Of a stretch of 64,000 nucleotides of DNA, positions 1-10,645 are shown piece by piece; position 1 is the stretch's first letter, and every line of letters starts with the position of its first letter. The position numbers and the translations under genes are program-made. Under the pieces are notes generated by a model, which ran no database searches, was not told the DNA's origin, and saw only the letters and a list, made by a program, of their open reading frames with translations. The stretch is from the NCBI GenBank assembly GCA_016935355.1, contig JAFGRC010000024.1, positions 1 through 64,000 of the forward strand, written 5' to 3'. This DNA is from Bacteroidales bacterium (GTDB lineage: Bacteria; Bacteroidota; Bacteroidia; Bacteroidales; UBA10428).

Positions 1-1
1 G

Positions 2-217
2 GAATCCGGATATCTTAATTTAATCAATGATCAACTTAATGATCTGTCCAGGAAAATTGAAAACACAGCCAGCAAAATTGAAAAATATGGATCAGAAGAT
101 TCATTTATGGGATCCGGCCTGAATCCTGATAAACCTATTGATCAAATGACTGATGGAGAAATTAACCGATTGATTGAACAAAAAAGAAAGATCCATGATC
201 AAAAAGGAGGCCATTGA
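2..217 (+). CDS. Hypothetical protein, C-terminal fragment (cut by window start)
   Basis: Frame 2 is open from the first base to a TGA at 215-217 and gives about 71 residues. They are polar and probably helical (repeated N/D/K/E, two KIE motifs), consistent with a coiled-coil tail. The residues before the stop read like a genuine protein end, and the next ORF starts at 195 inside this one, a typical phage-style overlap. No family is recognised. It is transcribed rightward, towards the leftward operon of the element. Confidence 0.5.
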   Translation, partial: ESGYLNLINDQLNDLSRKIENTASKIEKYGSEDSFMGSGLNPDKPIDQMTDGEINRLIEQKRKIHDQKGGH

Positions 218-419
218 ATTACTGGACACATCAGGTTTTATTAAGGCTTATTTTTATAACCTGTCCGGCAGCATAACTTATCAACAAGCTTATGATAAAA
301 CGGAAGATCTTTTTATGAGTTACTTCGGTAAAAGAAGATATGCAGATTATAACTCATTCCGCAATATCCTGACCCGGCACCTGAAAAGATCCAATAAAAA
401 AGCCTCAATTGCATCATAA
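195..419 (+). CDS. Small hypothetical protein (74 aa)
   Basis: The ORF track starts at a TTG at 174, but the ATG at 195 is the more credible start. It overlaps the end of the preceding frame by 23 bases, suggesting translational coupling. The product is basic with several aromatic residues and no recognisable domain or signal peptide. Together with the upstream partial ORF it forms a rightward pair that converges on the GIY-YIG-like gene. It could be an element accessory gene; function unknown. Confidence 0.55.
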   Translation: MIKKEAIELLDTSGFIKAYFYNLSGSITYQQAYDKTEDLFMSYFGKRRYADYNSFRNILTRHLKRSNKKASIAS

Positions 420-497
420 ATGAATAACCCGGGATCCTCCCCAGGTGATATAACTTTCCCCTTACAAATTTTGCTAATGATATCAGCAAACAAATCT

Positions 498-568
498 GAC
501 CTCATTAAATCAATTCTGACAAACGATCTCTGGCCGGATAATATCTGACATTATCCCAAAATCAGGTT
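498..568. repeat. Structured repeat, copy 1 of 2
   Basis: An outer stem (GACCT with AGGTT) encloses the motif ATTCTGACAAACGATCTC and an inner 7-bp hairpin (GGATAAT/ATTATCC, 7-nt loop), followed by CAAAA. The second copy at 613-682 has the same order and spacing and compensatory changes in both stems. Which strand, if any, is transcribed is not clear. Confidence 0.6.
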
Positions 569-612
569 AAACCCCCGGTATTACTATTGTTGAGGTGTTA
601 TTTGGCAAAAAT

Positions 613-682
613 GAGCCATTTTAAGCGATTCTGATGAACGATCTCCCCCAGGGTAATATAATACCATTACCCAAACTGGCTT
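613..682. repeat. Structured repeat, copy 2 of 2
   Basis: An outer stem (GAGCCA with TGGCTT) encloses ATTCTGATGAACGATCTC and an inner hairpin (GGGTAAT/ATTACCC, 8-nt loop), followed by CAAAC. Relative to copy 1 the inner stem changes A-T to G-C, and the outer stem changes C-G to G-C and T-A to C-G, so base pairing is kept while sequence differs. A weaker third echo (CTGATGAAACGATC) lies at about 698-711. The other sequence between 420 and 890 shows only the start-less open frame described separately. Confidence 0.6.
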
Positions 683-692
683 AAATTCATAG

Positions 693-986
693 ACTACTGA
701 TGAAACGATCCGGCAGACCAGGGACTTTCTGAAAGGTGAATTAGATAAGTGCAAGTCTTATAAAGATCTTGTTGATTTCAACAAGATCTTATTTGATTCT
801 GAACATTCATTTAAACAAAGTAAAACTCATGGCATAGGCCGGACCACAATCCTCAAATTCCTGGGCAAACCATGGACCGAAAACAATATAGAAATTATTG
901 ATCAGGTCTTTTATAAATCTCATTGCACATTGGCAATTCTTCAAAGATCCGTTTATGTTCTTCCAGAATGGCTTTTAACCTTTTGA
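693..986 (+). other. Open reading frame without start codon, possible gene remnant
   Basis: Between TAG at 690 and TGA at 984 the frame is open for about 97 codons, and its first two thirds have protein-like composition (an RDFLKGELDKC-type helix, then GRTTILKFLGKPW). No ATG, GTG or TTG start lies near its beginning, and its end runs antisense into the GIY-YIG-like gene. It may be a decayed gene, a coding sequence with a nearby frameshift, or chance. Confidence 0.25.
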
Positions 987-1212
987 CCGGATCGCTTCCT
1001 GTTTCTGCATTAAAATAGAATGCCATTTTGCTGCAGGCTCCCCTTATTCCTGATTTATGGGCTGTTAATTCATCCCTGATATCATTATCAGATTTGCCGT
1101 AATAAATAGCAAATTTTTGGGAATCGTATAAACCGAAAACTCCTCCAATATTCGGGGCATAAACTCCGATGGATTCCTGGGTAAAAATGTACTTTTCAGT
1201 AAATATTGCCAT
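895..1212 (-). CDS. GIY-YIG-like small protein (105 aa)
   Basis: The middle of the protein has a VFGLYDS strand, then AIYYGKSDN, then a helix beginning with Arg (IRDEL) and a His, followed by a Glu-rich helix. This is the order of a GIY-YIG nuclease fold, although the signature is degenerate (IYYGK for the usual YIG-K block). Nuclease activity is therefore inference. The gene lies beyond the terminator of the phage operon, so it probably has its own promoter. Its 3' end faces two small rightward ORFs. Accessory cargo of the element is a reasonable guess. Confidence 0.55.
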   Translation of the reverse strand: MAIFTEKYIFTQESIGVYAPNIGGVFGLYDSQKFAIYYGKSDNDIRDELTAHKSGIRGACSKMAFYFNAETGSDPVKRLKAILEEHKRIFEELPMCNEIYKRPDQ

Positions 1213-1312
1213 GGTAATTGAAAATTTGAAGATAAATTATAAGAGTGAAGGATCAGGGGATGAAAGAGATAACAAAAGGAAATTGTTATCGGCATTGCAT
1301 GAATAAAAATAT

Positions 1313-1342
1313 AAAAAAAACCCGGTATAGCAATATACCGGG
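1313..1342 (-). terminator. Rho-independent terminator of the element operon
   Basis: A perfect 9-bp stem (CCCGGTATA and its complement) closes a 4-nt loop and, read on the minus strand, is followed by eight T residues. It begins 24 bases after the stop codon of the tail-type gene, so it ends the long leftward operon. Confidence 0.88.
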
Positions 1343-1365
1343 CAAAAGAAAAAGGGGGCAGATTA

Positions 1366-3279
1366 TCAGGACCGCAATTTTATCTTTCCTCCACTACGCA
1401 ATTTTATATAACCTCCGGACCGGAGCAATAAATATCCCTGTTCTGCATAAGCATATTCAACCATATCAACTTCCCATTCATCATCATACATATTCTCTGA
1501 AAACCGTTTCAGGATAAATAACCGATCAGAACCAATGGGACATTCAATAACAGATCCGGGTTTAAAATTGCATTTCAGGGATCCGGTGATCATAGCCATA
1601 GGCCGGACATGATTTACACTTATTTCATCTGCAATAAGATTCACCAGGTGTTTCATATCTTCCGTTCCCCTTACTTTCCAAAATTGTGTTACGATATATT
1701 CATCCCCTGATTTTCTATAAAGCCCTCCCCGGTACATAATTTTGTTATTATCAATATCAGGAAGATCCCCGATCATCATCGTATAATTATCAGGTACCCG
1801 GTTTTGCTTGTCATTGATTTCAGTTATTATCGTTTGTGATTCGGGAACTTTGTTATAATTGTCAAGTTTAATGATTATATCATCTTCGCTTTTAAATACC
1901 ATCCTGGTCTTTTTTCCAACATTCATTGCATGAAATACAGGCATGAAAATCCTGACATATAATATACCTGTTAAGGCCGTTCCTCTGCTTTTTATTTCCC
2001 TGGTCCCAATAGGGATCATGGAATTTGGCTCTACCCAATCATAAAATTCACCGTCATTATTGTAAATGAAACGGGAAGTTTTATGCCAAAAACCATCTTT
2101 ATCCAAATATCGGGTTGCTCCACCGCTTGGCGTTCTGATGAATATCATTACCCGGCCCATGGCCACCTCTTCCGGATCATCAGTATAAAAAGCATTAAGT
2201 GTTAATGAAATATTAAGGAAAGTATCCTTTGAATATTGAATATCGCAAACCTGGTATTCTAAATATTTGGTTGGATTAAAACCATACGGGGAAACAGATT
2301 CATTCTTTATTCGCAATATATAATCTTCCCCATCTGTTTCACAATCAATACCACCGATGTTTTCAAAATCATAAATATCAAAAATGTTTTCATCATATCC
2401 GAAATCCTGATCCAGTATAAATTTCCTCCAGGCCGGAAGGATTGTTAATGTAGGTTCATCCAGGAAAACATTCAACGGATTGCCTTTATAATCTGTTATC
2501 TGCACCCTGGGGGAAACAACATAATTATCCTGATAATAGCCAACAGGATTATACCTACGGGCCGTAAAATCTGATTTCATGACATTGGGTGAAACGACCC
2601 ACCACCTCCCTTCCTGTTGCCATAAACGGGCATTGCCACAAGTTTTTAATATCTGATCCAGGACATCAAAACAATTCATATCATTAAACCTCCTGCAGTC
2701 AAAATAAGTCTGGTTTGCCATAGTGTCTGCATCGGTTGCATTCTGGTTTTGTTCAATGATATTTATTGCCTCTGTGAAATGCAACCCATTCTTTAACTTT
2801 ATATAAATCAGATATGTTATCGCATACCATAAAGACCATTTAAGATTCAGCCCTTGTTTCTGGCTATATTCTTCCGCATCCCAATCAATATTTTTCAGAT
2901 ATCCTAATCCATCACTGAATAAAAGTTCCACAGGATAGGGAGCCGGAGTATATGGTTCAGAATAATAATCCGGTGTCAAATATCCCTGCCAATATAATGA
3001 ACTATTAATCCATGCTTGTCCCCTGTATTTATATGAATCAGAAGTAAAAAGATCCAGGAAGGCATAATCTGTCTGGCTTTCAATCTGTACTTTGATATAT
3101 GATTTTATGATCCGGTCCTCCAATTCATCATCATCCCCCCGGCCTTCCCTGATGCAAGGCCGGGCTGTACCTGTTAATTCAGTTGATGATCCTGAATAAT
3201 TCTCTTCCTGGATCCTGAATTCACCAGCCCTGTCCAGTATCGTATGGAAGGGAACCGTATATCTTGTGCCGTATGCCAT
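1366..3279 (-). CDS. Phage tail/baseplate-type structural protein (637 aa)
   Basis: The N-terminal third carries a block resembling tail proteins of Bacteroidetes prophages: WQGYLTPDYYSE, then PYPVELLFSDGLGYLK. The rest is rich in Asp, Tyr and Trp and looks like beta-rich virion protein; no membrane segment or signal peptide is present. The last 23 residues are a short internal repeat (LLLRSGG, IKLRSGG, IKLRS). It is the last gene before the terminator, 19 bp after the terminase small subunit. In full prophages such proteins usually follow a tape-measure gene, which is not seen here. The family assignment rests on pattern memory, so the exact tail role is uncertain. Confidence 0.6.
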   Translation of the reverse strand: MAYGTRYTVPFHTILDRAGEFRIQEENYSGSSTELTGTARPCIREGRGDDDELEDRIIKSYIKVQIESQTDYAFLDLFTSDSYKYRGQAWINSSLYWQGYLTPDYYSEPYTPAPYPVELLFSDGLGYLKNIDWDAEEYSQKQGLNLKWSLWYAITYLIYIKLKNGLHFTEAINIIEQNQNATDADTMANQTYFDCRRFNDMNCFDVLDQILKTCGNARLWQQEGRWWVVSPNVMKSDFTARRYNPVGYYQDNYVVSPRVQITDYKGNPLNVFLDEPTLTILPAWRKFILDQDFGYDENIFDIYDFENIGGIDCETDGEDYILRIKNESVSPYGFNPTKYLEYQVCDIQYSKDTFLNISLTLNAFYTDDPEEVAMGRVMIFIRTPSGGATRYLDKDGFWHKTSRFIYNNDGEFYDWVEPNSMIPIGTREIKSRGTALTGILYVRIFMPVFHAMNVGKKTRMVFKSEDDIIIKLDNYNKVPESQTIITEINDKQNRVPDNYTMMIGDLPDIDNNKIMYRGGLYRKSGDEYIVTQFWKVRGTEDMKHLVNLIADEISVNHVRPMAMITGSLKCNFKPGSVIECPIGSDRLFILKRFSENMYDDEWEVDMVEYAYAEQGYLLLRSGGYIKLRSGGKIKLRS

Positions 3280-3298
3280 GATTGTAAAATTTTAATGT

Positions 3299-3811
3299 TT
3301 ATGGTTTCTCTTTATTCTCCAAATACTCTCTGAATTTTGATTTGGTTTCCTTCATTGGAATATGAATATTCTGGGCAGACGAAGGACTTAAACCGAATTC
3401 TGCAGCTAATAACCGGGCTTGTTTTAAACATTCAATTGAATATCTTGTCAGCCCGTGCATTCTGATATCAATTATTTTCCGGTCCTGTGGATCCTTCCCC
3501 GGATCATCATATTTAACCAGGATATGTTTTTTGATATCTTCCATTTCTATTTCACATTCATAGTGCGATCCAGCAAAAAAGCAGTACATGAAAAACATAT
3601 GAATGTTTAAACGATTAATTATACCCATAATAAGCAGTCTGTTACCAATTTCATAATAAATCTGTTTGTGGATCTCCCGGAAGTGATCCGGGGGATCCGG
3701 GAGCTGTTGAAGTGATTCACATTGCAAATGATTCTTTGGAATTCTGCATTTTTGCATCGTCCCCCTTAATTTTTTCACCTCAATAGGTAAACTTTTTTTG
3801 CCTCTCTTCAT
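3299..3811 (-). CDS. Terminase small subunit, P27 family (TerS)
   Basis: The protein is 170 residues, as expected for the P27 (Terminase_4) family. It has a basic N-terminus (MKRGKKSLP), a PPDHF motif near residue 40, a central helical region and the diagnostic C-terminal block AAEFGLSPSSAQNI. P27 TerS proteins recognise the packaging site on phage DNA and normally precede the large terminase gene. Here the next gene downstream is the tail-type protein and no large subunit is in the window. A stand-alone TerS is typical of satellites that redirect a helper phage's packaging machine, but the element's left end is unseen. Confidence 0.78.
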   Translation of the reverse strand: MKRGKKSLPIEVKKLRGTMQKCRIPKNHLQCESLQQLPDPPDHFREIHKQIYYEIGNRLLIMGIINRLNIHMFFMYCFFAGSHYECEIEMEDIKKHILVKYDDPGKDPQDRKIIDIRMHGLTRYSIECLKQARLLAAEFGLSPSSAQNIHIPMKETKSKFREYLENKEKP

Positions 3812-3939
3812 AATATAAAAACTATGTTTCTAAATAAATTCTTATTTGCACCTGAAAAATATTGATGAAGCCACCGGTTTCTGGCTGATAGGTTGGGAGA
3901 ATTTACCCCCCATACCCCCCTGGACTAACAATCAAATAG

Positions 3940-4476
3940 TTATACATAGATAACATTATTATATTCATTAACTGGCTCATAATATTTTAATTCAACTTCA
4001 TGAATTTTTGAATTAGTTATTTCCCCAATCCAAACCAGGGAACCAGGATAAGCCGGATCAATACAAGGCCCAACATCAATTAATTGCAGAATATTTTTTA
4101 TGATAAGGACCCGGGATCCCTGCTCATCTTTTGTCCATTCCTGGAGCCTGGGAACATAATCATATTGCAGCGAACTTCCCCTCATCCTTTTGTTTCTGAT
4201 ATCTGATTCAAACAACCGATTGAATTTTTCCTGCATATATCCATCAATAGTTTTGGCTTCATAATATATCCCTTCCTTCCTGATCAGGATCCGGACATCA
4301 CCAGGATAAGATCCCAATAAACTTTCCCTTTTATCACAATGACTGATAATACATTCAACATGATCCATGTCTGCACAATCCAAGCAATGAGGATCCAGGA
4401 TCACCCGGTAGGATCCTTGGTTGTCATGGTAATAATGACTTTCTTTTGAAAACGGTATATAGCCGGAAATCTTCAT
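3940..4476 (-). CDS. Second, divergent HK97-type prohead protease-like protein (S78 family)
   Basis: The 178-residue protein aligns by eye with its neighbour at 4861-5442. ECIISHCD occupies the place of the catalytic-His motif, then comes LLGSYPGDVRI, then RGSSLQYDY in place of the catalytic Ser motif GSSFGF. The C-terminal block DVGPCIDPAYPGS matches the family's SPV-PAYP ending. Both catalytic residues seem retained, though surrounding identity is low. Two such genes with no capsid gene is unusual. It could be a capsid-modifying factor or a degenerate duplicate; assignment is moderate because it rests on manual alignment. Confidence 0.5.
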   Translation of the reverse strand: MKISGYIPFSKESHYYHDNQGSYRVILDPHCLDCADMDHVECIISHCDKRESLLGSYPGDVRILIRKEGIYYEAKTIDGYMQEKFNRLFESDIRNKRMRGSSLQYDYVPRLQEWTKDEQGSRVLIIKNILQLIDVGPCIDPAYPGSLVWIGEITNSKIHEVELKYYEPVNEYNNVIYV

Positions 4477-4504
4477 TTTTAGACACGATATTTGTTAAGT
4501 GATA

Positions 4505-4864
4505 TCATACCATTACTTTTACTCGTTTCTGCTTCCCTGTGGACATTTTTGACTTGCGGGTATCAAATATATTCCCATCAATATAGTTGCTGAGGACTTC
4601 ATCTTTAAATATTGCTGTCATGCACTTTTCAAATTTATCCTGACCAAATAATTCATTACCGATTATTGATTCCCCAAAAGTGATTTCTCTGCCTTCAATG
4701 ACAATATTTTCATTTAAAGGCTTGCTGATCCTCCCGGTTTCATAACCGATGATCCTGCCATCCTGCTCATTACAATAAAGTTCAGCAAAGTACCTGGTAC
4801 CTGACTTTTCAAGGATAAGATACCTCACATCGTTTTTAATAAATTCTGTTGGCAGTGTTTTCAT
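4505..4864 (-). CDS. Hypothetical phage-type protein (119 aa)
   Basis: The start codon overlaps the stop of the prohead protease gene by four bases (ATGA), so the two are translationally coupled. The product begins with a beta-rich stretch (RYLILEKSGTRYFAELY) and ends in a very basic tail (KQKRVKVMV) that could bind nucleic acid. A FGESIIGNELFGQDKFEKCM segment is distinctive but I cannot attach it to a family. It sits between the two S78-family genes, which suggests a role in the same process. Confidence 0.6.
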   Translation of the reverse strand: MKTLPTEFIKNDVRYLILEKSGTRYFAELYCNEQDGRIIGYETGRISKPLNENIVIEGREITFGESIIGNELFGQDKFEKCMTAIFKDEVLSNYIDGNIFDTRKSKMSTGKQKRVKVMV

Positions 4865-5442
4865 GATAACTTGTATTTATAAAGATCCAACTCCCTTTGC
4901 TTATGCAGCCAATATCTCCGGATCCTGTCGGCCTCTGCAGGATTAAACCTTTTCAAAGAATTCAGGTTTATAGATGTTTGCGGATAGGCCGGAAACACAA
5001 CCGGGCTCAAATCATAGATCCTTTCAAATTTTTTGATCCTCCGTTCCCAAGTGCCATCTTCCCTTTTATTCCATGTATCGCCATCAGATGCAACCTTAAA
5101 TCCGAATGAAGATCCTTTGATATCTTTTCGGCTGATACCTTCCTTAACACGTTCACCAATTGAAGTAACGGGAAGATCCACAATGTACCGGACCCCTGCT
5201 GCAGTAATTTGAATATCCATTGTTACAGGATAACGGCCCAGGATATAATCCGTATTATGATTAAACAGGCTTGTTACATCAGTCCAGTTCAGGTCCCGGA
5301 CTGATTCCGGCAATATCATTTCAATAAACCCTCCCAGGTTTTTGCTCCATTTGTTGAAAACAATGCCAAGTCCCTGAATTATCCGGGAATCTTTTTTAAG
5401 TTCCAAACCTTGTACATACCGCCTTTCAATTTCCTCTTTCAT
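4861..5442 (-). CDS. HK97-family prohead protease (peptidase S78)
   Basis: The 193-residue protein has the normal family order: NLGGFIEMILPESV near residue 35, the catalytic-His motif SLFNHNTDYILGR near 58-70, the catalytic-Ser motif KGSSFGFK near 110, a conserved DTW, and the closing block LSPVVFPAYPQTS. These proteases cleave scaffold and capsid protein during head maturation. In ordinary phages the gene lies between portal and major capsid; here both are absent and the next genes are an unknown protein, an S78-like relative and TerS. It starts one base after the end of the 120-residue gene. Confidence 0.85.
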   Translation of the reverse strand: MKEEIERRYVQGLELKKDSRIIQGLGIVFNKWSKNLGGFIEMILPESVRDLNWTDVTSLFNHNTDYILGRYPVTMDIQITAAGVRYIVDLPVTSIGERVKEGISRKDIKGSSFGFKVASDGDTWNKREDGTWERRIKKFERIYDLSPVVFPAYPQTSINLNSLKRFNPAEADRIRRYWLHKQRELDLYKYKLS

Positions 5443-5443
5443 C

Positions 5444-5806
5444 TTAATTTGTATATTTGATTAATTCATCAATGTTGTTTATCCTTATGAAATCGTTGTA
5501 TATTTCAATTCCGGTACCTGCTGTCATGCATTGCAGTTTTTTTTTATAACCGTCTGATAGTTTCAAATACTGTGCTGTAACTTTCTCAATCTCATAAGGA
5601 CGTAAGGATAAAATTCCAGCATCCTGTAAATCCAGAAAAAATGACTGAAAACTTACTGGCCGGAAGGATAAACTTTCTGTATGGTAAACCCCGTTTCGCT
5701 CAATAACTTTCTTTCCATTGATAACCAGGGTATCACTGAAAGGGCTGTTTGCTATCTCCCGTTCAATGACTTTATTTATTGCCGTTGCCAATAGATTTAA
5801 ATTCAT
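5444..5806 (-). CDS. Hypothetical phage-type protein (120 aa)
   Basis: It begins with an ATGA overlap to the upstream 55-residue ORF and ends one base before the protease gene, so it is firmly part of the operon. The sequence has an amphipathic N-terminal helix (LLATAINKVIEREI) and a hydrophilic body with a cysteine near residue 93 (KKLQCMT). No membrane segment, signal peptide or known motif is visible. By position it belongs to the morphogenesis or regulatory set of the element; no function is assigned. Confidence 0.55.
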   Translation of the reverse strand: MNLNLLATAINKVIEREIANSPFSDTLVINGKKVIERNGVYHTESLSFRPVSFQSFFLDLQDAGILSLRPYEIEKVTAQYLKLSDGYKKKLQCMTAGTGIEIYNDFIRINNIDELIKYTN

Positions 5807-5970
5807 GATGCTTTGTATATACTAATTAAACACTGGTATTGTCGTTCACTTAATGATCCGGTTTGCTGATACCACCTTTGCAAAGATTTTATAAACTTGA
5901 TCTGTGGATCTGAAAGATCCTGGTTCAATGCCTGTTTGAATATTTCTATTATCTCGTCCTTCTGTTTCAT
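5803..5970 (-). CDS. Small hypothetical protein (55 aa), missed by the ORF track
   Basis: Reading the minus strand from the ATG at 5970 gives a 55-residue helical protein starting MKQKDEIIEIFKQAL and ending ISIYKAS. Its TGA overlaps the ATG of the next gene in the ATGA arrangement used repeatedly in this operon, which supports translation. It fills the otherwise unexplained gap between the replication gene and the 120-residue gene. Function unknown. Confidence 0.6.
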   Translation of the reverse strand: MKQKDEIIEIFKQALNQDLSDPQIKFIKSLQRWYQQTGSLSERQYQCLISIYKAS

Positions 5971-5977
5971 ATGGTTA

Positions 5978-6724
5978 TCATTTTACTGTTTGCCTGGCAA
6001 TTATTTCACTCATTGACTGTTTATTCCGGTTTTCATCTTTGAACCATACTGATATCATTTGTTGTTTCCAGTTTTTTACTGCCTCACCATTTTTTTGATG
6101 CCAATCAGCAACATCATAATAATTGAAGGCTTTTATTGCCGATTGTTCTGAATATCCGTTCTCTGAAAAAAATTCTTTAATTTGCTGTAATGAAGGGGGA
6201 GTAAATTTTGGTTTTTTCCCTCTTCGTTCTTTACTTTCTTTACATTCTTTACATTCTTTACATTCTTCATTAGTTGCCACTTGTTTGCCACTTGTTTGCC
6301 ACTTGTTTGCCACTTGTTTGCCGATTTGTTTGCCAGTTTCATTTTCATCAAGTTGGTATTCCTCCCATTTACAAATAGTTATAAGCCTTCCGGTCTTTGC
6401 CGATTCGTTTGTCAGAAATTTCCACTTTTCTAACTTAATTAATGCCGTTCTGATGTTCTTAATTGTAACATCACGGGCGCATTTTTCCTTTAGTGATTCC
6501 AATGATGTTATAAATTGACCTGGTTGACATTTGAATATTTTTTTATGCCACTCCCATTCATTTTCCTTGAAATTTGCCATTAACAAGCACTGGATCATAA
6601 CATCTCTTTGCTTACTGTTTAATGACCTGTATAATGGACTGTTAATAATCTTTCTATGGATTTTAACCCAGCCTCCGGAATTTTGACTATCTTTACCCTC
6701 GCTCATTTTTTCTGATTGTTTCAA
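5978..6724 (-). CDS. Replication initiator-like protein (DnaD/phage O-like)
   Basis: The N-terminal 100 residues match the winged-helix region of phage replication proteins (GGWVKIHRKIINSPLY, then KCQPGQFITSLESL). A low-complexity linker encoded by tandem repeats follows, and the C-terminal part (IKEFFSENGYSEQSAIKAFNYY, WKQQMISVWF) resembles a DnaD-type domain. Such proteins load the helicase at the element's own origin. The track start is a TTG overlapping the previous stop (TTGA); the ATG at 6706 is an alternative seven codons in. The repeats inside the gene are candidate origin iterons, as in lambda O. Confidence 0.65.
   Translation of the reverse strand: MKQSEKMSEGKDSQNSGGWVKIHRKIINSPLYRSLNSKQRDVMIQCLLMANFKENEWEWHKKIFKCQPGQFITSLESLKEKCARDVTIKNIRTALIKLEKWKFLTNESAKTGRLITICKWEEYQLDENETGKQIGKQVANKWQTSGKQVATNEECKECKECKESKERRGKKPKFTPPSLQQIKEFFSENGYSEQSAIKAFNYYDVADWHQKNGEAVKNWKQQMISVWFKDENRNKQSMSEIIARQTVK
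6229..6268. repeat. 9-bp tandem repeat inside the replication gene
   Basis: Four to five near-perfect copies of TTACATTCT occur in a row. They encode the repeated tripeptide ECK/ECKES on the minus strand, so they keep the reading frame. They lie just beside the 11-bp repeat array. Confidence 0.75.
6274..6334. repeat. 11-bp tandem repeats (candidate origin iterons)
   Basis: Three perfect copies of TTGTTTGCCAC (6281-6313) are flanked by degenerate copies on both sides. The 11-bp period shifts frame with each unit, so the protein shows an 11-residue cycle. One DNA helical turn spacing inside an initiator gene is the usual arrangement of iteron origins. Confidence 0.7.
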
Positions 6725-6885
6725 GATTTAGGGGGATCTTCGGATCCCCTTTCCGTTTCAGAAAGATCATGTTCTAATTCCTTCGCCAGATCATAATGTC
6801 CGGATTTTCGGAGTTCTTTGATCCGGTTAAAGACCAACTCCCGGAGACTTTCGTCTTGTTCAAGTGTCGCATTTTCGTGTTTCAT
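6721..6885 (-). CDS. Small hypothetical protein (54 aa), missed by the ORF track
   Basis: From the ATG at 6885 the minus strand encodes 54 residues, mostly charged and helical (RELVFNRIKELRKSGHYD), ending in PPKS. Its TGA overlaps the TTG start used by the track for the replication gene, consistent with coupling. No motif is recognised. It could be a small regulatory or replication partner protein. Confidence 0.55.
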   Translation of the reverse strand: MKHENATLEQDESLRELVFNRIKELRKSGHYDLAKELEHDLSETERGSEDPPKS

Positions 6886-6913
6886 AGTTATAATATATAT
6901 TGGTAATGATCAT

Positions 6914-7810
6914 TTACTTTGCTTTTTTCGTCTTCTGATACTGTTTCAATGTCCGTTTTTCCTGATCAGATATGGCCCCTTGGCGTTCCAGGATCTCGCC
7001 TTCGACATCCCCGACTTTTGCCCAGGTAACAGCCGATCCTCCAGAGAAATGGACTTTGCCGGATGCATTTTTAGATTGTTCTAATCTTTTTTTTGCATTA
7101 ACACCAAGTTCGACTTCAGATTTTTTCGGAAGTTCCGAATCCAAAATTTTAGTGCTAAAGCCAATCGTTGTCATCTGAGAATCGTAACTTTCATTTGCTT
7201 TTACCTGTACCAGAAAATCTCGGGGTTCTGCAAAAAATGGCTGGCCTGGCCGTTTAAGATCATGAATCCGCACCATAGTTTCAAACGCCTTCATCACTTC
7301 AACCACTTTTGGCATTATGGCTGCATAATCCTTTTTAAATTTGTTATCCAGGGAGTATTCGCATTTTTTACCGATGATTTCTTTCATGTCGGGCCTTAAT
7401 GAAGGTTCCCCTGTTTTTTCATCATACTGATAACATTCAAAATCGACAAACCCCCGGTAACCATGCACCTCAGAACGTTTTTTCAGTTCAACGATATTTT
7501 GGGGCATTGCCTGGTTAATTTGCTCATTTAATGTATCAACAGTTGGGAGTTGGGTATCGTCTTTTAGGACAAATAGCGGAAATTCCTTTTGCAACTTTTC
7601 TCTACTCTTATCAAAAATCACTTTCAACTGTTGATGCATATAAGCACCTCCGAATTTTCTGATTCCTTCGCAATATTTCGCATTGAATAGCGGTAAATTT
7701 GGTTCGGTTTGCCAAACGCTGTATAATGCCAATACCACAGTTAAGTATTGTTCGGTCGTGTGTTCTACCAGGCTGGCCCGGCTTTCGTCAAAAAAAATTT
7801 CATCTTTCAT
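6914..7810 (-). CDS. Hypothetical element protein (298 aa)
   Basis: A hydrophilic cytosolic protein with no signal peptide. Visible landmarks are an N-terminal helical half (VVLALYSVWQTEPNLP), a central region with GYRGFVDFECYQYD, a block DYAAIMPKVVEVMKAFETM, and a basic C-terminus (KRTLKQYQKTKKAK) suited to nucleic-acid contact. It begins four bases after the HTH gene, so the two share an mRNA. I recognise no family. Position between the excisionase-like gene and the replication gene suggests a replication or transfer role. Confidence 0.55.
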   Translation of the reverse strand: MKDEIFFDESRASLVEHTTEQYLTVVLALYSVWQTEPNLPLFNAKYCEGIRKFGGAYMHQQLKVIFDKSREKLQKEFPLFVLKDDTQLPTVDTLNEQINQAMPQNIVELKKRSEVHGYRGFVDFECYQYDEKTGEPSLRPDMKEIIGKKCEYSLDNKFKKDYAAIMPKVVEVMKAFETMVRIHDLKRPGQPFFAEPRDFLVQVKANESYDSQMTTIGFSTKILDSELPKKSEVELGVNAKKRLEQSKNASGKVHFSGGSAVTWAKVGDVEGEILERQGAISDQEKRTLKQYQKTKKAK

Positions 7811-7814
7811 TTCA

Positions 7815-8162
7815 CTATAGTTTTATGTTTAACTTATTTTTCGCTGATTTCATGACTGATTTTGAAACCGGATCCCCTGTCTTTTTAATTTTGGATTGTG
7901 CGTAATTTATCAGTTCGGATCTATTAAAAACCAGACGTCTTCCAATCTTTTGCTTTGGCATTTCTACCATGCTTAATTTATAAAACAGGGATTTAGAAAC
8001 CGGGCTGCCCCAGGTCTTCTGTAAAAGATCCCGGGCCTCATCTGCATTGATATTAACAGGCAATTTTTCCTTCTCTGGCTGTTGAAGTATCTTTGATTTC
8101 TGAATAGCACTCAGGATTAAGGCCTCAAGTCTTTCCTCAGTAATAACAATAAGTGGTTCCAT
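7815..8162 (-). CDS. Excisionase/AlpA-type helix-turn-helix protein (115 aa)
   Basis: The C-terminal half carries a MerR/excisionase-like HTH (HTH_17 type): NINADEARDLL, SKSLFYKL, then IGRRLVFNRSELINYAQSK, which is the usual helix-turn-helix plus wing ending. The N-terminus is a helical extension. Proteins of this kind act as recombination directionality factors or switch regulators beside integrases. The KpnI-like palindrome array at 8245-8280 lies about 85 bp upstream of its start and is a plausible binding site. Confidence 0.75.
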   Translation of the reverse strand: MEPLIVITEERLEALILSAIQKSKILQQPEKEKLPVNINADEARDLLQKTWGSPVSKSLFYKLSMVEMPKQKIGRRLVFNRSELINYAQSKIKKTGDPVSKSVMKSAKNKLNIKL

Positions 8163-8244
8163 AATTCACAGCTTTATTTCATGCTGTAAAATTACAGTCG
8201 CAATACACGAAATGCAAATTTAAAGTGCTGAAAATGATGATTTT

Positions 8245-8280
8245 AGGGTACCTGAGGGTACCTTTCAATTTTGGTACCCT
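8245..8280. promoter_or_regulatory. Triple GGGTACC/GGTACCC array, candidate operator or attenuator
   Basis: Two direct copies of AGGGTACC ten bases apart are followed by the inverted copy GGTACCCT. The second and third form a perfect 8-bp stem with a 10-nt loop. The array lies between the 290-residue gene and the HTH gene, right after the former's stop. No T-run follows on the transcribed strand, so an operator is more likely than a terminator. Confidence 0.5.
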
Positions 8281-8285
8281 ACTTT

Positions 8286-9149
8286 TTAAACAATGAATTC
8301 TTTGATATTCAAAGTATTATCCTTTATTCGGTTGGCTGTTTTGAAGATTTTGCCAATGTACCCTGGTTTAGAAGGCCCGTCAGGGAATAAAAATGATTCG
8401 CTAAAATATTGAATAAGAAACTTTTGATTTATTATTTTCTCTCTTTGCAAAGTATAAATGTCTTTTGCATTAATGAGGCAACCCAAATCCCATAATTCTG
8501 CAATTACTGAAATAAAATGATTTGCTGGTTTTTTAATTACAATAAGATTTTGTGGTTTTTGACCTTTTAGCCACAATAGAAAATGATTGACTTCAGATTG
8601 ATCAAAATACCCGATTTGAGATAAATGGCTTGCCAGGCCAATTGAATACAGTTTACTGGAAATGCCTAATTTTTCAATTTTGAAATAATTTTTTATGAAC
8701 TGGATCTTTGCCCTTAACAGGTGCATTTGGAAGTTAATGTTTAATTTTATTGGTTGTGCATTGCCCTGTATCCTGACAATTTCTGAATCGACCAGATCCC
8801 GGATTTTTCTGTAATCGCTTCCCTTAACGAAATCAACATTTTTTTGTAATAGTGCATTATTCCAATGCCTTATATTTTTTACCCTTTCCTGTTCCAGTTC
8901 TTCAAGTTGTGAATTTAAAAATTCCTTTACATCTTTTGGATCCAGTTTTTCTATAACCTGATCAATAAAAGTCCCGAAACAATGCATATTTATTTCAACG
9001 CCTTTGTCAAAAGCCCATAATCGGGATTCTCTGATCTTATCCAGTTCGGATTTTTTGGGAGGTGCATCATCCAATTTATCAGGGAAATCACCATCCCATT
9101 CATCATTCAGCCAGGCTGAATGAGCGTATTTATTTTTTAATTTTGCCAT
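8286..9149 (-). CDS. Hypothetical protein downstream of integrase (about 287 aa)
   Basis: The ATG at 9149 (MAKLKNKYAH) is preferred over the track start at 9158; either way it overlaps the integrase end. The protein is helical and charged, with no signal peptide or membrane span. There is a coiled stretch near residues 65-100 (LNSQLEELEQERVKNIRHW). I recognise no domain. Similar unknown ORFs commonly follow integrases in Bacteroidetes elements, so a role in element maintenance is possible, but nothing in the sequence proves it. Confidence 0.6.
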   Translation of the reverse strand: MAKLKNKYAHSAWLNDEWDGDFPDKLDDAPPKKSELDKIRESRLWAFDKGVEINMHCFGTFIDQVIEKLDPKDVKEFLNSQLEELEQERVKNIRHWNNALLQKNVDFVKGSDYRKIRDLVDSEIVRIQGNAQPIKLNINFQMHLLRAKIQFIKNYFKIEKLGISSKLYSIGLASHLSQIGYFDQSEVNHFLLWLKGQKPQNLIVIKKPANHFISVIAELWDLGCLINAKDIYTLQREKIINQKFLIQYFSESFLFPDGPSKPGYIGKIFKTANRIKDNTLNIKEFIV

Positions 9150-10464
9150 CCCCTTCAAATCTTAGTAGTAATTCGGCATTTTTCTGCCGTTCTTCTTTTT
9201 CAAAACTGTCCAAATAACTTTCAGTAGTCTTTTGATTACTATGACCCAGGGATTCACTAATAAAAGCAATGTTTGTTCCACTTCTTTTTAATACGGTTGC
9301 GAAACTATGTCTGGCCGTATATGTGCTGATATTTCCATATCCCAAATCCTGGCCAATCTTTGTCAATTTATCATTGATAAGTTTCGTCAAATTCTTTACT
9401 ATTCGCTTTTCATCAATTGGAGTTATATCCCCATAAAGGAATGGAAAAATGTAATTTGTTGGTTTCCGATCAGAATTCCCCCATTTTTCAATTATCGTTT
9501 GCATTTGAGGCAACAATGTTGCTGCTATTTCTTTTTGATCCGGGTTTGTTCTGGTAGTTTTCTTTCTGTAAAACCGGACTTCACTATCTTTGATATTTGA
9601 ATACCGTAAACGTAAAAGGTCATTAACGCTTATGCCATTACACAAATACATGAAAAGCCATAGATCCCTACATTTTCTCTCTGTTTCAGTTACTAATGGA
9701 TATTTAAGAACTTCATCAATCTGCGATAATGATAATGCCATTTTCCGGCCGGTCCAGTTTTGGATCTTAAATTTATCTTTCCCTTTGCCAAAAGGATATT
9801 CAGCATTTGTGATCACATCTTCTTCTTTTGCATCATTCATAATTGCACGTATGGCACGCATATACATTGAAATTGTTGTACGGCTTTTATCTTCTTCAAT
9901 CAAAAAATTTTCATACTTCTGTAACCAGGTTTTATTAATATCAGAAAATTTCAAGTCTTTAATTATGAATTTTTCTATGTTTTTAACAGTACATAAATAC
10001 CACCCTGCAGTTCCAACTTGCCCGTTTTTATTTAACTTTTCTATCTTATTATAAAAGGCTGTTAATATACTGTTCTGCATTCCCCGGCTTAATCTTGCAT
10101 TCAATTTATCATAAGAAAAGTTTCCATTTTTAATTAAAGCAATGATGTGGCTTTTAATGCCGTCAAATCCTAATTGAATTAACCCCTTTTGCTCCAGCAG
10201 GTCTTTTTTTCGTGTTGTTGTCATAGCATACCATTCATTTAATGATAAATCAACTCCTGCATTATAATAAACCTGTTTACGCTTATGAGTAACCCGAAAT
10301 TTAACATTATAAAGCCCATTGGTTTTTTTTCGCCTGGTATCAAAAACTATTGATAAAATAACCCCGGCTTTAGAATAATTTTCTGATACAAGCATTTTAG
10401 GCTCATCATTTTTCTGAAAAGATTTCTTTGTCATTACGTATGAAAATTTTTTTTGAGCATACAA
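9130..10464 (-). CDS. int: Tyrosine recombinase/integrase (444 aa)
   Basis: The order is an arm-binding N-terminus (VFDTRRKKTNGLYNVKFRVTHKRKQVYY), a SAM-like core-binding domain (residues about 130-220) and a catalytic domain. The catalytic Arg is in DLLRLRYSNI, the second Arg box is YTARHSFATVLKRSG, then LGHSNQKTTESYL supplies the last His and the nucleophilic Tyr. Length and layout match Bacteroidetes phage and transposon integrases. It lies 137 bp from a tRNA-Pro 3' fragment, its evident target. Start at 10464 is the track choice; M11 is also possible. Confidence 0.93.
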   Translation of the reverse strand: MYAQKKFSYVMTKKSFQKNDEPKMLVSENYSKAGVILSIVFDTRRKKTNGLYNVKFRVTHKRKQVYYNAGVDLSLNEWYAMTTTRKKDLLEQKGLIQLGFDGIKSHIIALIKNGNFSYDKLNARLSRGMQNSILTAFYNKIEKLNKNGQVGTAGWYLCTVKNIEKFIIKDLKFSDINKTWLQKYENFLIEEDKSRTTISMYMRAIRAIMNDAKEEDVITNAEYPFGKGKDKFKIQNWTGRKMALSLSQIDEVLKYPLVTETERKCRDLWLFMYLCNGISVNDLLRLRYSNIKDSEVRFYRKKTTRTNPDQKEIAATLLPQMQTIIEKWGNSDRKPTNYIFPFLYGDITPIDEKRIVKNLTKLINDKLTKIGQDLGYGNISTYTARHSFATVLKRSGTNIAFISESLGHSNQKTTESYLDSFEKEERQKNAELLLRFEGDGKIKK

Positions 10465-10519
10465 TTTTCATACAAATATAGAAATTAAATGAAAATACAG
10501 GAATTTAAATGAATGAAAT

Positions 10520-10541
10520 TTATCAACAAATATGTTGATAA
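10520..10541. repeat. Inverted repeat between integrase and attachment site
   Basis: Two 9-bp arms, TTATCAACA and TGTTGATAA, are separated by AATA. The repeat sits about 60 bp from both the integrase start and the tRNA fragment. It may be an integrase arm-type or excisionase site, or an operator for int. Confidence 0.45.
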
Positions 10542-10600
10542 TCAGGATAGTTAATGGTGAATTGAATTTTTATGAATATGCCTGAATTTAAGCAAATTAT

Positions 10601-10645
10601 GCTTTGGGAGCAGGTGGTCGCCAGTTCGAGTCTGGCCACCCCGAC
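10601..10645 (+). repeat. Attachment site: 3' half of tRNA-Pro (anticodon TGG)
   Basis: The segment starts in the anticodon arm (GCTTTGGGAGC, anticodon TGG) and continues through the variable loop, a perfect T-arm (GCCAG-TTCGAGT-CTGGC) and the 3' acceptor strand CACCCCGA. The 5' half (expected to begin CGGGGTG) is absent, so this is not a functional tRNA but the duplicated crossover segment. Its orientation places the intact tRNA-Pro at the unseen left end of the element. Confidence 0.85.

Follow-up and report, generated by a model that had tools for sequence, protein, structure and literature searches.

A probable helper-dependent phage satellite with two prohead proteases, a small terminase, and a tail hub-like gene in a Bacteroidales genome

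What is a compact gene cluster that combines an integrase, a small terminase (TerS), and two prohead proteases? The question is raised by the left end of a 64,000-nucleotide stretch of Bacteroidales DNA (positions 1-64000 of contig C133, hereafter the window). The host genome is a 2.83-Mb assembly of 173 contigs that is 94% complete and 0.2% contaminated. Our analysis indicates that the cluster belongs to an element of 12,147 bp, here called E1, which is inserted in tRNA-Pro and is probably a phage satellite that depends on a helper. E1 has perfect attachment (att) repeats and its own integrase, putative regulator, and replication gene, along with TerS, two S78-family proteases, and a hub-like tail protein. 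No large terminase (TerL), portal, major capsid, or tape-measure gene was recognized by Pfam or PHROG matches anywhere between its att sites. Two incomplete elements of similar layout, E2 and E3, reside in the same genome, and elements with related backbones and other phage genes occur elsewhere. Most knowledge of satellites comes from Proteobacteria and Firmicutes. None of the families catalogued in a 2024 review (PMC11389934) is from Bacteroidota, and we found no such elements described in the open-access literature on phage satellites in this phylum, a scope outside which most closed journals fall.

Results

Boundaries of E1

The original prediction, made from the window alone, proposed a phage satellite at positions 1-10645. 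The right end was correctly placed, at a direct repeat of the tRNA-Pro(TGG) 3' end (attR) where no second tRNA gene is present. The left end was not, since contig C133 stops at window position 1 and E1 extends about 1.55 kb further, into contig C135. C135 (reversed) and C133 share an exact 58-bp overlap, a 119-aa open reading frame (ORF) stays in frame through the join, and 1.55 kb left of the overlap C135 bears an intact tRNA-Pro(TGG) gene (ARAGORN, L007:1561-1635) containing the matching att copy; the join is based on these three observations. Extension to the intact tRNA-Pro, with a listing of all genes, had been proposed as a check; it closed E1 at its full length and added only small ORFs. 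About 88% of E1 is covered by ORFs, and its G+C content is 35.5%, versus 40-42% in the adjoining chromosome.

The insertion site comprises a tRNA-Pro(TGG) and tRNA-Ser(GCT) pair. The same pair occurs at L282:11758-11981 (G039 contig C204), on a contig that also has a distant relative of the replication gene of element L073 (described below). A CACACC/CACACT microsatellite lies directly 5' of tRNA-Pro on host genome (G000) contig C135 (L007, about 1636-1740).

Gene content of E1

The features of E1 are listed below from right to left, in window coordinates unless stated otherwise.

10600..10645, no strand: attR, 46-bp direct repeat of the tRNA-Pro(TGG) 3' end
9130..10464, minus: tyrosine integrase (Pfam Phage_integrase, 1.4e-12; Phage_int_SAM_5, 1.8e-19)
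8286..9158, minus: 290-aa protein, kept in E2 (BLASTP 7e-11 to L008:12842-13741)
7815..8162, minus: helix-turn-helix (HTH), excisionase/AlpA-like protein (HTH_17, weak alone, 0.12)
6914..7810, minus: 298-aa core protein (33% identity to E2 protein)
6721..6885, minus: 54-aa protein (57% identity to E2 copy)
5978..6724, minus: DnaD-like replication initiator/helicase loader (phrog_2514, 4e-26)
5803..5970, minus: 55-aa protein, common to E3 (50% identity)
5444..5806, minus: 120-aa protein, directly upstream of an S78 gene in E1 and E2 (45-49% identity to E2 copy)
4861..5442, minus: S78 prohead protease, copy a (S78a; PF04586, 1.5e-32)
4505..4864, minus: 119-aa protein between both proteases (no family match in Pfam or PHROG)
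3940..4476, minus: S78 prohead protease, divergent copy b (S78b; PF04586, 2.4e-7, above the Pfam cut-off)
3299..3811, minus: P27-family TerS (PF05119, 1.4e-5; phrog_83, 2.5e-17)
1366..3279, minus: putative tail-tip/baseplate hub-like protein, 637 aa (PHROG virion protein, 1.5e-6)
1320..1343, minus: terminator-like hairpin closing the operon (10-pair stem, then TTTTTTT, just beyond the last stop, that of the hub gene)
895..1212, minus: 105-aa protein, possible degenerate GIY-YIG (PF01541, E 0.048, below cut-off)
1..217, plus: 3' part of a 119-aa ORF entering from contig C135, in frame across the 58-bp overlap
Contig C135, L007:1561..1606, within the intact tRNA gene: attL, 46-mer identical to attR

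The operon lies on the minus strand and runs leftward from the integrase to the hairpin (read on its own strand, 1343-1320), as described in the original prediction. The products named there (HTH, replication initiator-like, two S78, P27 TerS, and one tail-type protein) all have Pfam or PHROG matches, that of the HTH protein being weak. Its homologue in L073 matches HTH_17 at 1.3e-11 and AlpA at 4.5e-4, just under the cut-off. All cassette genes are intact, full-length ORFs. Between the terminator and attL only short ORFs occur, with products that include a weakly HEPN-like protein of 153 aa, one of 116 aa, and the 119-aa protein that spans the join. Large terminase, portal, and capsid genes, which the original prediction had named as its refutation, were sought up to the left att site and were not found.

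The integrase is 53% identical to that of L073 and 39% identical to that of another element, L079. The replication protein shares 31% identity with the corresponding gene of a prophage, G153a. For the 298-aa core protein, no clear relative beyond E2 was found among 392 genomes of the order.

S78 proteases

Both S78 copies score above the curated PF04586 cut-off and retain conserved active-site residues. When 18 S78 proteins are aligned, the columns occupied by H62, S112, and D144 of S78a are invariant, and H46, S102, and D134 of S78b fall in the same columns. By our reading of the family, these residues probably form the catalytic triad. S78b is a divergent paralogue, with 25% identity to S78a and 58% to the E2 copy. 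Between E1 and E2, dN/dS for S78b is about 0.23 at a dS of about 1.3, indicating purifying selection through most of its divergence.

Prohead and herpesvirus proteases are known to be related. Consistent with this kinship, an AlphaFold2 model of S78b (mean pLDDT 80) had the cytomegalovirus protease among its top matches, although weakly (E 0.05, probability 0.84). Probes with S78b and the 298-aa protein gave only chance-level or distant matches outside this genome (IMG/VR, GTDB contigs, and about 400 genomes of the order). S78a as a single-sequence query had no matches in IMG/VR, and an alignment query was needed. PDB sequence searches with S78, hub, and TerS returned nothing useful.

Tail hub-like protein

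The 637-aa protein has homologues in phages G153a and G410, where they are encoded immediately downstream of the tape measure, and among the structural proteins of Cellulophaga and Flavobacterium phages. Its AlphaFold2 model resembles phage Mu gp44-type baseplate hubs (Foldseek E 5e-5, probability 1.0) outside a poorly modeled middle part (residues about 294-515), to which the fold assignment does not extend. The protein thus models as a tail-tip or baseplate hub-like protein.

Comparison with phages

We surveyed 122 S78 loci with hidden Markov models built from local sequences. TerS was upstream of S78 in all 60 loci that had both, and S78 was upstream of the hub in 27 of 27. E1 has a reversed order, with the proteases before TerS and the hub about 20 bp after TerS. 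Adequate flanks (at least 6 kb upstream and at least 4 kb downstream of S78) were available for 45 loci, and only three of these lacked both TerL and portal: L073, L079, and a high-GC locus with unreliable ORF calls. A candidate S78-only element, L106, was not accepted, as it lies on a high-GC contig where the ORF caller picks wrong frames.

Relatives of the E1 TerS, S78a, and hub occur together on G410, a 37.5-kb phage contig (IMG/VR 3300031651_000007; loci L116, L272, and L273). G410 has the best hub match (29% identity over the full length, both proteins being 637 aa). Its S78 is 44% identical to S78a, the best match together with a near-identical contig, and its TerS is near-best at 33%. 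The phages of the G410/G153a type are HK97-like siphophages whose S78 and hub are homologous to those of E1, as is the G410 TerS, but they differ in carrying the full TerL-portal-S78-MCP-tail set (MCP, major capsid protein). We take G410 as a likely sample of the helper lineage, on the strength of these homologies, and not as the helper itself. The E1/G410 length ratio is 0.32, close to the ratio of about one third reported for phage-inducible chromosomal islands (PICIs) and their helpers (PMC6092414).

The G410 contig has an HNH gene at one end and TerS at the other, an arrangement expected if its ends are near the packaging site. Comparison of E1 and G410 DNA for a shared cos/pac site gave only chance matches, and none was identified beside TerS. 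No helper prophage of the kind that the original prediction had proposed to look for was seen in the host genome.

Further elements in the same genome

Two further such elements are present in the host genome, each broken by a contig end. E2, at the end of contig C42 (L008:11539-17820), encodes an integrase, orf299, HTH, orf275, orf56, DnaD-like, DnaC-like, orf95, and S78b. The order matches that of the E1 homologues, so that the early genes are colinear, and the contig stops inside S78b. The terminal 50 bp of C42 match window positions 3959-4008 of E1 exactly, which suggests either recent exchange or a shared downstream region; TerS and hub may thus be present in E2 as well. E3, at the end of contig C1 (L017:17404-20000 and L018), adjoins tRNA-Arg(TCT) and comprises a replication-gene fragment, orf60, a P27 TerS (34% identical to that of E1), orf108, and an S78 of another subfamily. 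A 130-aa ORF of E3 is 61% identical over 74 residues to the E1 116-aa protein. No TerL follows TerS up to the contig end.

Relatives in other genomes

Four elements elsewhere have integrase or replication genes related to those of E1-E3 but carry other partial cassettes. Direct repeats at tRNA genes bound all four, so intact units recur in independent genomes.

L073 (Bacteroidales bacterium PFL1, L073:5206-14551) is 9.3 kb long, with perfect 42-bp att repeats at tRNA-Arg(ACG). It encodes an integrase, HTH, a 445-aa replication-associated protein, one S78, bSEFIR (1.3e-72), and a SIR2-like protein; the S78, 44% identical to that of E1, is its only recognized virion gene. L079 (L079:892-13475; G064 contig C12) spans 12.5 kb between 18-bp repeats at tRNA-Arg(TCT) and carries an integrase, a tape measure, S78, and an HK97-type capsid gene, with no TerL, portal, or TerS. 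It could be a remnant or a satellite that supplies its own capsid and tape measure. L281 (L281:4101-11269; 7.2 kb, tRNA-Met, 17-bp repeat) has a cassette of DUF5681 (TerS-like) and TerL, and L226 (IMG/VR, L226:104-10306; 10.2 kb, tRNA-Gly, 20-bp repeat) has TerS and TerL. Both have an integrase-HTH-replication backbone, and the TerS/TerL pair represents their only recognized phage genes.

The replication gene of L281 is 60% identical to that of L073, and this one gene type is common to L073, L281, and E3, which carry three different phage cassettes. The 445-aa protein matched no family, and its role in replication is inferred from the place of its gene. One replication gene with three cassettes is hard to obtain by independent prophage decay and is predicted by a modular satellite family.

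Related integrases were also considered as a satellite marker and rejected: among about 40 such loci, L226 was the only one seen to have phage packaging genes in the absence of a complete phage. Several of the rest resemble unrelated islands, some with relaxase-like genes.

Comparison with known satellite families

As expected of satellites in general, E1 is a small att-bounded element with integrase and replication genes and an incomplete virion set, and its stand-alone P27 TerS is by homology a putative packaging-redirection gene. It shares with PICIs, including the Staphylococcus aureus pathogenicity islands, the layout of an att-bounded island of about 10 kb with integrase, putative HTH regulator, own replication gene, and stand-alone TerS. 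Some PICIs encode head-morphogenesis factors (PMC6092414), but E1 has two S78 proteases and a tail hub in place of CpmA/B, Ccm, or Rcm-type size factors. The PICI-type pri-rep replication module was not encountered: E1 has a DnaD-like loader, and L073, L281, and E3 have the unclassified replication-associated gene. The host also differs, as Bacteroidales are a group unmentioned in PMC6092414.

Capsid-forming PICIs (cf-PICIs) are satellites bearing phage head genes (PMC11389934, PMC10803314). A cf-PICI would be expected to have its own capsid and portal genes; neither was found in E1, which also differs in having no TerL. L079 resembles cf-PICIs in carrying a capsid gene and S78 but has no portal, TerS, or TerL, and it has a tape measure in addition. 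Phage-inducible chromosomal minimalist islands (PICMIs) and P4-like elements are, like E1, small integrated satellites. PICMIs (PMC10803314) and L073 both pair minimal mobility genes with defence genes. No TerS-type redirection gene was found in PICMIs, which insert at fis, whereas E1 has TerS and is inserted at tRNA-Pro. There were no Pfam or PHROG matches in E1 to P4-type sid, psu, delta, or alpha-type genes.

Discussion

The satellite interpretation of the original prediction is supported by these comparisons. E1 would supply its own integration, regulation, and replication and borrow nearly all virion parts from an infecting HK97-type siphophage. Helper infection would turn E1 on, and E1 would excise and replicate. 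Its TerS would then bind the helper TerL and steer it to satellite DNA. The S78 proteins may work inside the procapsids of the helper, where their most likely effect would be to bias or reroute scaffold or capsid maturation toward the satellite, by way of head size or the choice of head. Rerouted head maturation, a changed head size, and blocked assembly of the helper are all conceivable outcomes. The hub may replace or compete with the helper tail tip, possibly altering which cells the particles enter. We infer these roles of the proteases and the hub.

Could E1 instead be a prophage of the G410 lineage that decayed and was rearranged, losing TerL, portal, capsid, and most tail genes as well as its mobility? 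That one lineage has relatives of TerS, S78a, and hub, the replication gene is similar to one in a full prophage from the same genus, and no resident helper was seen. However, the cassette ORFs are intact and full-length, the protease active-site residues are kept, and the att repeats are perfect. Deletion alone cannot turn the order TerS-TerL-portal-S78-MCP-...-TMP-hub (TMP, tape-measure protein), with TerS ahead of S78 in every locus that allowed the comparison, into S78-S78-TerS-hub. Together with the elements of the same layout, the recurrence of the same backbones with other cassettes and defence genes, and the purifying selection on S78b, this gene order, found in none of the surveyed phages, weakens the prophage explanation, which we consider unlikely. 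It is still less likely that E1 is mainly an anti-phage island, whose additional proteases and hub would serve as decoys to poison assembly in incoming phages, with transfer being secondary or absent. Defence genes do adjoin the S78 of L073, and S78b is strongly divergent from phage copies, but pure defence does not need TerS, a replication protein, or an integrase with intact att sites, and the presence of relatives at different tRNA genes implies mobility. Least probable of all is an integrative element that spreads by conjugation or natural uptake and acquired its phage genes by chance. Some elements with related integrases bear relaxase-like genes (L230 and L234), but no relaxase or mobilization gene was recognized in E1, and its cargo is specific, consisting of genes for packaging, head maturation, and the tail tip that have relatives in a single phage lineage.

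Several points weigh against a helper-dependent satellite. The closure of E1 relies on a contig overlap and not on reads. No capsid-size factor was recognized and no cos/pac site was identified in E1. Searches of the host genome, one of them run without a positive control, found no helper-type TerL, so a helper would need to come from outside; there are described satellites whose known helpers are foreign to the strain (PMC11389934). S78b and the 298-aa protein were found in this genome only, making the E1 subgroup narrow, and the phage genes of several relatives could still be residues of ancestral prophages.

More tentatively, E1 and its relatives may represent an undescribed, modular satellite superfamily of Bacteroidales, in which related integration and replication backbones carry interchangeable helper-specificity genes (TerS/TerL, head-maturation protease, capsid, or tail hub). 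In the E1 branch, S78 would be a head-hijacking factor and the hub would alter particle targeting. We hold this broader proposal possible, at somewhat less than even chances.

Bacteroidales are major bacteria of the animal gut. If the proposal is true, they have phage parasites of their own that carry defence genes and borrow tail hubs and head proteases in addition to TerS. Such proteases would then offer a new route to the takeover of capsid assembly, and the hub suggests that satellites can alter where particles deliver DNA.

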